NCBI GenBank assembly: GCA_030038475.1
Contig: JASHOU010000216.1
Coordinates: 1 to 64,000, forward strand
Length of the DNA stretch: 64,000 nucleotides
Reading direction: 5' to 3'
Source of the DNA: Terriglobales bacterium
GTDB taxonomy: Bacteria > Acidobacteriota > Terriglobia > Terriglobales > Acidobacteriaceae
Each line of letters opens with the position of its first letter. The stretch's first letter is position 1. The translations under genes were made by a program, and so were the position numbers. Under the pieces are notes generated by a model. It did no database searches. It was not told where the DNA came from and worked only from the letters and a program-made list of their open reading frames with translations. Below, piece by piece: positions 8,664-57,003 of this stretch.

Positions 8664-8820
8664 AGAGTTCAATGTTTCGAGGTTTCAGAGTTTCAATGTC
8701 TTAGGGTTTCAGTGAAACACCAATTCGGAGCTTCAACGCTTCGACAGCATTTTGTGGTCAACGACGACTTCAAAGTCTTGGATCATTGCAACCTTGAACC
8801 ATTGAAACTTTGAAACCTTT
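8664..8820. repeat. Paired edge arrays in the fdx-iscX spacer (8-nt period)
   Basis: The left arm at 8664-8711 has six phased 8-nt units with consensus NNGTTTCA (AGAGTTCA, ATGTTTCG, AGGTTTCA, GAGTTTCA, ATGTCTTA, GGGTTTCA). The right arm at about 8784-8820 repeats the reverse complement (CATTGAAA, CTTTGAAA and similar). About 70 nt of unrelated sequence lies between them. In the isc transcript the arms could pair into a long imperfect hairpin. The arrays fill both edges of the spacer, stopping just outside the iscX Shine-Dalgarno and 6 nt from the fdx stop. Confidence 0.85.
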
Positions 8821-9254: not shown

Positions 9255-9356
9255 ACGTTTCAAGGTTTCAAAGTTTCAGGGTTTCAAGTTCACCATGTCG
9301 TACCAATCTGAGTAGCTTCACGCTGAAACTTTGAGAACTATGAAACCTTGAAACCT
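9255..9356. repeat. Paired edge arrays in the hscA-fdx spacer (8-nt period)
   Basis: The left arm at 9255-9294 reads ACGTTTCA, AGGTTTCA, AAGTTTCA, GGGTTTCA, AGTTCACC. The right arm at about 9321-9356 is its reverse-complement type (CGCTGAAA, CTTTGAGA, then two TGAAACC-containing units). About 26 nt of other sequence separates the arms. It is the same motif family as in the fdx-iscX and iscS-iscU spacers, but not an exact copy. Confidence 0.85.
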
Positions 9357-11285: not shown

Positions 11286-11369
11286 TTGTAATTTGTGATT
11301 GGTAATTTGTAATTTGAAGTGCGTATGGGCGAAATCGCAATTACAAATTTCAAATTACCGATTGCAAAT
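11284..11369. repeat. Paired edge arrays filling the hscB-hscA spacer (7-nt period)
   Basis: The left arm at 11284-11318 has five heptamers: ATTTGTA, ATTTGTG, ATTGGTA, ATTTGTA, ATTTGAA. The right arm at about 11341-11369 is the reverse-complement type: TTACAAA, TTTCAAA, TTACCGA, TTGCAAA. The arms run from the hscA start codon to the hscB stop codon with about 22 nt between them. The same motif family recurs at 23674-23757. Confidence 0.88.
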
Positions 11370-12679: not shown

Positions 12680-13096
12680 TTACTGCACCGTTTGCACGGC
12701 CGCGGGCTTGGTCGCTTCCTGCTTCTTCTTCCAGTCGCCGATGGCAGCGCGGATCGCGTCCTCGGCCAGCACCGAGCAGTGAATCTTGACCGGCGGCAAA
12801 GCCAGTTCCTTCACGATCTCAGTGTTCTTGATCTCGAGCGCCTGATCGACCGTCTTGCCCTTGACCCACTCGGTGGCGAGCGAAGACGATGCGATGGCCG
12901 AGCCGCAGCCGAAGGTCTTGAACTTGGCGTCTTCGATGACGTTGGTCTGCGGATTTACTTTGATCTGCAGCTTCATCACATCGCCGCACTCGGGCGCGCC
13001 CACCAGGCCGGTGCCCACGTCGGCGCTCGACTTATCCATGGAGCCAACGTTGCGTGGATTGTTGTAATGGTCGATTACTTTATCGCTGTATGACAT
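12680..13096 (-). CDS. iscU: Fe-S cluster scaffold IscU
   Basis: A 138-residue scaffold protein. The N-terminus is the canonical SDKVIDHYNNPRNVG. The three cluster cysteines are in GAPECGDVMKLQ, TFGCGSAIASSS and VKIHCSVL, with the conserved aspartate in ECGD. LPPVK, the HscA-binding motif, directly precedes the third cysteine. The C-terminus has about 12 extra Ala/Lys/Val-rich residues. IscU receives sulfur from IscS and iron, builds a 2Fe-2S cluster, and passes it on with HscA/HscB. Confidence 0.95.
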   Translation of the reverse strand: MSYSDKVIDHYNNPRNVGSMDKSSADVGTGLVGAPECGDVMKLQIKVNPQTNVIEDAKFKTFGCGSAIASSSLATEWVKGKTVDQALEIKNTEIVKELALPPVKIHCSVLAEDAIRAAIGDWKKKQEATKPAAVQTVQ

Positions 13097-13104
13097 CTTT
13101 CACC

Positions 13105-13234
13105 CCTTCAGGTTTCAAAGTTTCAAAGTCTCAAGGTTTCAATGACTACCCCACCGAGTCCTCAGGGCTGCAAGTTTCATCGTTCCTGACTTTGGAACTT
13201 TGAAACCATGAAACTTTGAAACCCTGAAACCTTG
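13105..13234. repeat. Paired edge arrays in the iscS-iscU spacer (8-nt period)
   Basis: The left arm at about 13105-13144 has 8-nt units such as TTTCAAAG, TTTCAAAG, TCTCAAGG, TTTCAATG. The right arm at about 13187-13234 has GGAACTTT, GAAACCAT, GAAACTTT, GAAACCCT, GAAACCTT. The arms are reverse complements with about 42 nt between them and run almost from the iscU start to the iscS stop. In RNA they could form a stem of more than 30 bp with mismatches. Confidence 0.87.
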
Positions 13235-13237
13235 CTT

Positions 13238-14521
13238 CTAATGTGCCTCTGCTGCCCACTTCACATTTTTCAGGTCCACGCCTTCTTTCGCCATTTCGTA
13301 GAGCGGCGAAAGCTCGCGCAGACGCAGAACCGTTTCCACCACGCGGTCGGCCACGTAGTCGACTTCAGCTTCTGTGTTGAAACGTCCGATGCCAAAGCGG
13401 ATCGAGCTGTGCGCCAGATCGTCGCCCGTGCCGAGCGCCTTCAATACATAAGATGGCTCAAGGGTCGCCGAGGTGCATGCCGAACCGCTGGAAACCGCAA
13501 TATCGTTGATACCCATCAGCAACGACTCGCCTTCGACATAGGCAAAACTGATATTCAGGTTGCCCGGCAGGCGGTGCTCCATCGAGCCGTTGATGTAGAC
13601 CTCATCGAGGCGGCTCATGATGCTGTTTTTCAGGTGATCGCGCAGGCCCGCTAGTTTGACAGATTCCTGGGGCATTTCTTCCATCGCAAGCGAACACGCC
13701 TTGCCCAGGCCGACAATACCGGGAACATTCAAAGTGCCGGACCTCATGCCGCGCTCGTGCCCGCCGCCGTCGATGAGCGGAACGATCTGCACGCGCGGAT
13801 TCTTGCGGCGAACGTAGAGCGCGCCGGCGCCCTTCGGGCCATAGAGCTTGTGCCCCGTGATGGAGGCGACATCGATGTTCATCTTGTTTACATCAATCGG
13901 AATCTTGCCGATCGCCTGCACCGCGTCGGTGTGGAAGATAACGCCACGCTCGCGGCACAGCTTGCCGATTTCGGCGATGGGCTGCAGCACGCCGATTTCG
14001 TTATTGGCCGCCATGATTGTGACCAGGATCGTCTTGTCATCCATGGTGCGCTTTAAGTCGTCGAGATCGATCAAGCCATCTTTCTGCACCGGCAAATAGG
14101 TCACGCGGAAGCCAAACTTCTCCAGATGCTTGCAGGTGTCGAGGACCGCTTTATGCTCGGTAACCGCGGTAATGATGTGGTTACCCTTCTCGCGATACAT
14201 CTCCGCGACACCTTTGATGGCGAGGTTGTCGCTTTCGGTGGCGCCGGAGGTGAAAATGATCTCTTTTGGGCTCGCGCCGATCAGCTTGGCAATGCGCTCG
14301 CGCGACAACTCAACCGCTTCTTCCGCGACCCAGCCAAAAGGATGATTGCGGCTGGCGGCGTTGCCGAACTTCTCCATGAAATAGGGCAGCATTTCTTCCA
14401 GAACCCGCGGATCCATCGGCGTGGTCGCGTGATTATCCATATAAATCGGCAGCTTGATGCCGTTGGGAGCAGTGCGCTGCTCGTGATCGTTTAGGGTCGC
14501 CTTGTTGCCGTTCGTGCTCAT
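13238..14521 (-). CDS. iscS: Cysteine desulfurase IscS
   Basis: A 427-residue class V aminotransferase-fold enzyme. The PLP lysine is in [12 protein letters not shown] and the catalytic, persulfide-forming cysteine is in [11 protein letters not shown], on the long flexible loop typical of group I (IscS) enzymes. The N-terminal [17 protein letters not shown] and [15 protein letters not shown] are diagnostic. It converts cysteine to alanine and passes sulfane sulfur to IscU and other acceptors. The N-terminus carries about 20 extra residues. Shine-Dalgarno GGAG is visible upstream of the ATG at 14521. It is the second gene of the operon after iscR. Confidence 0.95.
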
Positions 14522-14542
14522 GATTGCCGTTTCTCCTACGCC

Positions 14543-14597
14543 GCCCCTGAAGGGGCATTATTTTTTCTAACGCTTGCGGCATCGCTAAAGCGATGCC
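14543..14597. other. Two stem-loops in the iscR-iscS spacer
   Basis: GCCCC-TGAA-GGGGC at 14543-14556 is a 5-bp stem with a tetraloop. GGCATCGCT-AA-AGCGATGCC at 14578-14597 is a perfect 9-bp stem with a very small loop. On the operon strand neither is followed by a U-tract, so read-through with processing between iscR and iscS is more likely than termination. Confidence 0.7.
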
Positions 14598-14627
14598 CTG
14601 ATACAAAGCATTGCTGCTACACCATTG

Positions 14628-23672: not shown

Positions 23673-23673
23673 G

Positions 23674-23757
23674 ATTTGTAATTGGTAATTGGTAATTTGT
23701 AATTTGTAATTTTCAAAGCGGATCTAATTTAAGTTTCAATTACAAATTACCAATTGC
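23674..23757. repeat. Paired edge arrays filling a convergent spacer (7-nt period)
   Basis: The left arm at 23674-23715 has six heptamers: ATTTGTA, ATTGGTA, ATTGGTA, ATTTGTA, ATTTGTA, ATTTTCA. The right arm at about 23733-23757 is the reverse-complement type (GTTTCAA, TTACAAA, TTACCAA, TTGCC). The pair runs from 1 nt after the GAF gene stop to 1 nt before the stop of the opposing gene. It is the same motif family as the hscB-hscA spacer 12 kb away. Confidence 0.9.
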
Positions 23758-23758
23758 C

Positions 23759-56926: not shown

Positions 56927-57003
56927 TGGTAGGCACGTGGGGACTCGAACCCCAGACCTCTACCGTGTCAAGGTAGCGCTCTAACCAACTGAGCTACGCG
57001 CCT
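56927..57003 (-). tRNA. tRNA-Val (GAC)
   Basis: A 77-nt tRNA on the minus strand. The acceptor stem pairs AGGCGCG with CGTGCCT (one G-T), the D stem starts with GCTC, the anticodon stem-loop is CTACC-TTGACAC-GGTAG with anticodon GAC, and the T arm contains GGTTCGAGTCC. The 3' ACCA is encoded. GAC reads GUC/GUU valine codons. Confidence 0.95.

Follow-up and report, generated by a model that had tools for sequence, protein, structure and literature searches.

The short tandemly repeated repetitive (STRR) heptamers of heterocystous cyanobacteria are degenerate 7-nt units that can be likened, by their description, to the arrays reported here, and the heptanucleotide repeats in the tRNA-Leu intron and in the RNase P RNA of these organisms form stems. 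The published repeats closest to the present arrays are heptamers of Xanthomonas and of Nostoc/Anabaena, (GGGANTN)n and GGGGA(C/T)T, for which the authors were unable to assign a role (PMC4692102). Two Xanthomonas genomes hold 70 and 75 inverted pairs of such heptamers, and the repeats lie on average 28 nt from the upstream ORF and 160 nt from the downstream one (PMC4692102). TAACTGA repeats, described in marine Beggiatoaceae, cyanobacteria and Bacteroidetes, are likewise intergenic heptamer arrays; they differ in being direct, with one indirect case only, and in lying immediately upstream of start codons (PMC4679880). REP and REPIN elements, tagged by GTAG or CGTC and accompanied by RAYT transposases (tyrosine transposases of a kind that occurs also in Acidobacteria), are likewise small palindromic spacer repeats able to fold as RNA hairpins. 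REPs are hairpins of 20-40 nt with one fixed sequence per family, whereas the elements described here are long hairpins built from tandem degenerate units (PMC3733652). No description of such arrays in Acidobacteriota was found among the matches listed in the open-licence literature.

The window, which is the whole stretch of 64,000 nt analysed from a Terriglobales bacterium, carries an isc operon that lies entirely on the minus strand. The cysteine desulfurase iscS (13238..14521, minus strand; NCBIfam TIGR02006), the scaffold iscU (12680..13096, minus strand; TIGR01999), hscB, hscA and iscX all score above their NCBIfam cut-offs. The ferredoxin does not reach its equivalog cut-off; the operon opens with a regulator of the Rrf2 family that stays under the IscR cut-offs, and its fourth gene qualifies under the general assembly-accessory model and fails the IscA model. 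The closest iscS rows belong to Terriglobia/Acidobacteriaceae MAGs, with L009 at 94% identity.

The iscS-iscU spacer (13097..13237, minus strand, 141 nt) is an array hairpin almost throughout, which spans from 7 nt past the iscS stop to 15 nt short of the iscU start. Since the isc operon is read from the minus strand, that strand is the sense strand of the mRNA, and in it the order is GTTTCARR units, loop and YYTGAAAC units. The 5' arm (13200..13232, minus strand) stands right behind the iscS stop and the 3' arm (13110..13142, minus strand) shortly ahead of the iscU start; they pair over 33 nt at 88%, with 57 nt between them. The unit has 8 nt with a variable 2-nt linker and, because each arm is a tandem array of it, the stem has several pairing registers, such as 13111-13142 with 13192-13223 (32 nt, 84%) and 13111-13130 with 13188-13207 (20 nt, 95%). 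The stem can slip in whole 8-nt units, and the loop varies with the register between about 42 and 57 nt. The first-pass annotation had proposed a long imperfect stem made from 8-nt arrays between the desulfurase and scaffold genes, with complementary arms at 13105-13144 and 13187-13234 and about 42 nt between them; such a stem can form, the complementarity is borne out and the proposed gap falls within the range of loops.

Folding of the spacer, which had been named as a check, gives -59.2 kcal/mol for the sense RNA (13088-13245, minus strand) against -37.88 (sd 3.85) for shuffled sequences, a z of -5.54 that none of 200 shuffles equals, and the stem is well beyond chance expectation. The plus strand of the region (181 nt) gives -48.1, with a z of -4.33. 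An intrinsic terminator was not called at 12900-13400 by a scan that takes loops of 3-8 nt and would miss a long-loop stem, and Rfam has no match over the gathering score at the element, the sole match in the window being a tRNA at 56930-57003. The GTTTCARR unit does not fit GGGANTN, and a short fixed palindrome whose foot reads GTAG or CGTC was not found, since the arms are tandem degenerate arrays, the feet vary among the GTTTCA copies and no fixed tag is seen.

The isc operon of the window has three GTTTCA copies, of which the second lies in the hscA-fdx spacer (9257..9354, minus strand) and the third in the fdx-iscX spacer (8674..8816, minus strand). The hscB-hscA spacer (11286..11369, minus strand) has an inverted array of another dialect with period 7 (ATTTGTA), and a TTTGTAA-type inverted array of the same period (23673..23758, no strand assigned) has convergent genes on either side. 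The hairpin exists at the place that the first-pass annotation had named, where it was suggested to make the iscS part of the mRNA differ in stability from the iscU part; in E. coli the RyhB-dependent split of iscRSUA has an effect of this kind. Such an isc-specific device is very improbable, since the same element type is found in many unrelated operons and at the two further junctions of this operon. In a tree of 74 iscS rows, GTTTCA arrays defined by at least three exact cores occur at iscS-iscU in six, the window among them, and these six bearers need 6 changes, as many as shuffled labels would (mean 5.8). Near relatives often have spacers without the array, such as the 41-nt spacer of L010. 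The E. coli split itself sits elsewhere, in the iscR-iscS region at the Shine-Dalgarno sequence of iscS (PMC8300815). Stems of this kind may still influence, in general, how stable the upstream cistron is.

Other small elements are seen in the same operon. The iscR-iscS spacer (window 14522-14627) holds another palindromic composite (GGCATCGCTTTAGCGATGCC ... ATGCCCCTTCAGGGGC), and a similar composite lies at iscR-iscS in L009 and at iscS-iscU in L013 and L014, so different small elements occupy the same slots. The hscA-fdx spacers of L015, L020, L022 and L036 carry inverted CTCTGTG-type arrays with a spacing of 9-10 nt, which were seen in the relatives at this one isc junction. L020 and L022 have iscS DNA that is 88.9% identical and iscS-iscU spacers that are wholly different.

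The iscS-iscU spacer, used as query, has 79 matches in the own genome. The pattern GTTTCANNGTTTCANNGTTTCA has 61 + 54 matches with up to one mismatch, against 3 + 7 for the reversed-pattern control, and 86 + 69 with up to two mismatches, against 22 + 31. The window and 31 stretches around the matches listed contain at least 47 groups of GTTTCA arrays, while none of eight permuted cores used as control gives more than two groups in 384 kb. When GTTTCA is written as F and TGAAAC as R, these groups, at least 47, comprise 28 FR, 9 R, 8 F, 1 FFR and 1 FRF, with no RF; among the 47 listed, both arms are present in 30 and 17 are single-armed. Their settings are 37 same-strand, 5 convergent and 4 divergent, with one group inside a called gene. 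The distance from stop to element has a median of 10 nt in 27 two-armed copies, and in the 24 that have a same-strand gene downstream the element ends a median of 16 nt ahead of the start. Genes beyond the isc operon of the window were called by a codon-usage gene finder made for this analysis, which puts some start codons too far downstream, such as that of rplO, and so inflates distances from element to start. Arms mostly have four units (29 of 56), loops range from 20 to 94 nt (28 elements), and the 140 linkers between units include AG 46 times, AA 45, GA 20 and GG 15.

Seven GTTTCA copies are located in the S10-spc-alpha ribosomal locus of the own genome (contig C151), and further ones lie at rpsL-rpsG, rpsI-rpsB, rpsB-tsf, secD-secF and rimP-nusA and after mreB, with genes named by NCBIfam and rimP under its model cut-offs. 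Four genomes of the same family (G103, G014, G092 and G072) have 45 groups, 26 of them FR and none RF, with 33 between same-strand genes. Several of these groups share their junction with an array of the own genome: rpsL-rpsG, rplN-rplX and rpsM-rpsK (G103), rpmD-rplO and rpsK-rpsD (G072), and rpsI-rpsB, iscS-iscU and fdx-iscX (G092). The pattern is patchy: of 120 genomes from the order 12 have it, the own genome among them, and the one congener in this sample lacks it.

The class is much broader than the GTTTCA word. A search free of words, which takes inverted repeats with arms that are themselves periodic, finds arrays in 41 of 241 isc spacers of at least 50 nt in relatives (0.4 in shuffles). 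In S10-spc-alpha stretches of up to 20 kb from the own genome and 20 genomes of the family, arrays occupy 167 of the 435 same-strand gaps of at least 45 nt (1.7 in shuffles). The 20 comparison genomes are not a random sample, 11 having been chosen for GTTTCA matches and nine without them; these nine contribute 73 of the 167 arrays. The period is 7 in both arms of 131 arrays and 8 in 29. About 13 unit dialects are distinguished, for example AGCTCTT-, AGCTTTC-, GTCGTTG-, GTTTCAAG-, GTAATTGG- and AGTGGTT-like, and several are used within one genome; the AGGGA dialect accounts for three of the 167, in G002 and G096. The dialect word is on the 5' arm in 158 of 162 classified arrays, with four reversed and five more arrays unclassified; as the words were chosen after reading the arms, this polarity is an agreement within each dialect.

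The iscS-iscU spacer holds a single member of this dispersed class of inverted-array repeats, which stand behind stop codons, mostly between same-strand genes. The window and 16 other own stretches have arrays in 12 of 149 same-strand gaps (four in the isc operon of the window), 1 of 37 convergent gaps, 2 of 49 divergent gaps and 7 of 858 coding chunks. Among 20 Acidobacteriota genomes outside the order, seven have hits, which amount to 23 in 198 gaps (5 in shuffles) with one of them (L251) being a run of N; clear new array words occur in G142, G139, G127 and G152. In the E. coli S10-spc-alpha locus, 2 of the 27 spacers reach 45 nt, and neither of them is periodic.

Ribosomal-protein operons are crowded with these arrays. 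In the own genome, arrays other than GTTTCA occupy 10 of 22 gaps of the S10-spc-alpha locus, with GTTTCA in five more, against 8 of 130 gaps and no GTTTCA in the 16 background stretches (P 6e-7); because these stretches were picked away from the listed GTTTCA elements, the test is limited to the other dialects. Four other genomes show the same excess (P 2e-5), with 36 of 92 ribosomal gaps (8 more with GTTTCA) against 9 of 87 gaps (12 more with GTTTCA) in a background of stretches chosen for GTTTCA arrays. The spacers of the own S10-spc-alpha locus (L139) are unusually long: the 26 named ones have a median of 115.5 nt, whereas 27 spacers of E. coli K-12 have one of 14 nt. A dependence on synteny alone was considered and set aside on a view of few operons: the cell-division stretches L227 and L228, with names given by eye, have one such array in the cluster, behind an ftsZ-like gene, and the nuo/atp stretch L225 has several.

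The best reading, which we hold tentatively and at a little less than an even chance, is that the array pair is a cistron-end RNA hairpin. Counted for it are the array pair with its fold, the arrangement of the 47 own array groups, the occupancy of the 435 ribosomal gaps, the ribosomal excess in the own genome and in four others and the placement behind stops; the absence of any array from the S10-spc-alpha stretches of G094 and G089, 2 of the 21 genomes, counts against it. In polycistronic mRNA, such a pair would form a long, slip-tolerant hairpin that seals the upstream cistron and may hinder 3'-to-5' decay or separate adjacent cistrons. Any unit could pair with any other of its dialect, and so turnover of the sequence and replacement of whole arrays would be tolerated. 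On this reading the element between iscS and iscU is a cistron-end hairpin of the generic kind and no isc switch.

The slot is narrow on the stop side. Among ribosomal arrays (n=157), the 5' foot lies a median of 4 nt past the stop (IQR 2-9), 93% within 25 nt, and the 3' foot a median of 27 nt ahead of the start (IQR 10-72). In spacers of at least 150 nt, 53 of 61 arrays are closer to the stop. Non-periodic hairpins of array-less spacers are likewise on the stop side (13 vs 86 nt, n=107), which counts against the cistron-end hairpin. The final 22 nt of a spacer contain TTTT in 17 of 77 cases with an array foot close to the start and in 19 of 214 array-less spacers (P 0.004), which counts for it; at no more than 14 nt from the 3' foot, TTTT is present in 20 of 132 cases against 9.5 in shuffled flanks.

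Spacers with arrays have a median length of 131 nt and yet a median of only 35 nt lies outside the hairpin, which would suit a hairpin that loops out a long spacer, brings stop and start close together and couples translation. The long spacers of the own ribosomal locus and the concentration of arrays between same-strand genes agree with this fold-back. It is nevertheless improbable, since a median of 78 nt is left from foot to start in the spacers of at least 150 nt and convergent gene pairs also carry arrays. Loss of the Shine-Dalgarno sequence behind elements was considered and rejected, as an SD-like word occurs in 12 of 29 cases against 95 of 212.

At rpsD-rpoA of L139 and L202-L221, inspection by eye shows an array behind the stop and, between it and the rpoA start, a conserved stretch of about 110 nt that is present in many relatives (e.g. 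...CCAGATCAGCC...GGCCGAAGGAGAA...) and resembles an alpha-operon leader or attenuator.

Different dialects fill the same slots in related species. Array frequency differs among junctions beyond within-genome shuffles (P 0.0005), from 12 of 15 at rpsM-rpsK to 0 of 14 at rplV-rpsC, which counts for the cistron-end hairpin. The 12 arrays of rpsM-rpsK have five dialect labels, and four genomes have a spacer of at most 3 nt there. Across genomes the same dialect is found at the same junction in 133 pairs, against 71.8 (sd 7.1) in within-genome shuffles. When pairs of congeneric genomes are compared, 36 junctions have the same dialect, 52 different dialects, 93 an array in one only and 152 none. The stop codon was rejected as the seed of arrays, as it is repeated one period on in 7 of 131 against 3.7 expected.

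This turnover among congeners, together with the scatter on the iscS tree and the few arrays held by divergent gene pairs, is consistent with a tolerated repeat, in which a DNA-level process spreads and rewrites arrays that survive between the stop and the ribosome-binding site and the hairpin serves no purpose. Repeats that fill gaps close to strongly transcribed genes need no function to arise, which counts against the cistron-end hairpin, and the tolerated repeat is almost as likely, only slightly behind. The recurrence of dialects at the same junction, the nearly fixed polarity and the marked enrichment in ribosomal operons, which should be the least tolerant of idle inserts, argue against it. 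The enzyme that would mobilise such a repeat was also not found: the three Y1_Tnp (RAYT/IS200-type) matches in the own genome (G000 C166:10378-10707, C155:11522-11824 and C181:26340-26585) have no array in the surrounding loci. Mobilisation by RAYT was rejected, as the short flanks of these matches hold no periodic inverted array.

Pairing selected pair by pair in RNA should leave more G.U than A.C mismatches in the sense strand. The 167 ribosomal-locus arrays have 223 G.U against 194 A.C, without a significant excess (P 0.17), the own GTTTCA copies 32 against 33 and the isc arrays of relatives 51 against 41; a lean towards G.U is found only in the own ribosomal set (28 against 13, P 0.03). 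There is thus no sign of pair-by-pair RNA selection in the pooled arrays. In 27 own GTTTCA copies, partner arms match no better than arms taken across copies (P 0.72), so complementarity comes from the shared word and not from paired evolution. Both null results favour the tolerated repeat and count against the cistron-end hairpin. Complementarity through a shared word allows a robust hairpin without pair-by-pair selection and is no proof of one. In the ribosomal locus, partner-specific pairing appears in the dialects TAGC (P 0.0002), GTCGTT (0.0002) and AGTGG (0.002), is borderline in GTTTC (0.04), GTAATTG (0.05) and TGGCT (0.05) and is absent in TCAGC (0.20), but these P values are given no weight here, as the arrays were preselected for complementarity and the dialects are broad.

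Strand-symmetric mismatches, partners that are unmatched pair by pair and a fixed core with variable linkers would also be expected of a DNA-level site, in which 6-nt cores at 8-bp spacing and in inverted order are bound by a protein or form a cruciform. This is more improbable than the fold-back, since one DNA-binding protein could hardly read about 13 unrelated cores, several per genome, and the placement behind stops tracks transcription units. The mean G+T content of the 5' arm is 0.585, with 126 of 167 arrays above half and 35 below, against 0.500 (n=98) and 0.516 (n=117) in non-periodic hairpins; a G+T-rich 5' arm was rejected as a universal rule, the TCAGC dialect having 0.46, and is a tendency only.

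Taken at its widest, the cistron-end hairpin would be a sequence-free punctuation of cistrons in Terriglobales and, patchily, in other Acidobacteriota. Inverted arrays of short words would be made after stops by a putative array-making activity of limited vocabulary; species could exchange the words and still keep slot, polarity and hairpin, and the punctuation would be densest in ribosomal-protein operons. This proposal is rather unlikely as a whole. If the class is functional, a hairpin would be kept at each cistron end without sequence conservation, and RNA searches based on alignment would miss such hairpins. If it is not, a repeat would fill the spacers of operons deemed least tolerant of inserts, which raises the question of what writes the arrays.

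The arrays have in common with (GGGANTN)n, as described in PMC4692102, degenerate tandem units of about 7 nt, mostly four per run, in intergenic regions, and inverted pairs close behind the upstream ORF, mostly between genes of the same direction and seldom between divergent ones. (GGGANTN)n has one G-rich unit type capable of forming G-quadruplexes, whereas most of the about 13 types found here are not G-rich, and the genes linked to it are spread over functional classes, in contrast to the excess in ribosomal-protein operons (PMC4692102). Unlike (GGGANTN)n as presented there, the arrays also have 8-nt periods and exchange dialects at the same junction (PMC4692102). The class thus differs from those heptamers in its many interchangeable words, its 8-nt units and its concentration in ribosomal operons.

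Stops in all three frames are present in at least one arm of 65 of the 167 ribosomal-locus arrays, against 22 of 167 after shuffling of the arms, and periods of 7 and 8 rotate the reading frame. These stops could be a by-product, and the signal is kept as a lead only, because T/A-rich arrays of non-triplet period tend that way anyway.
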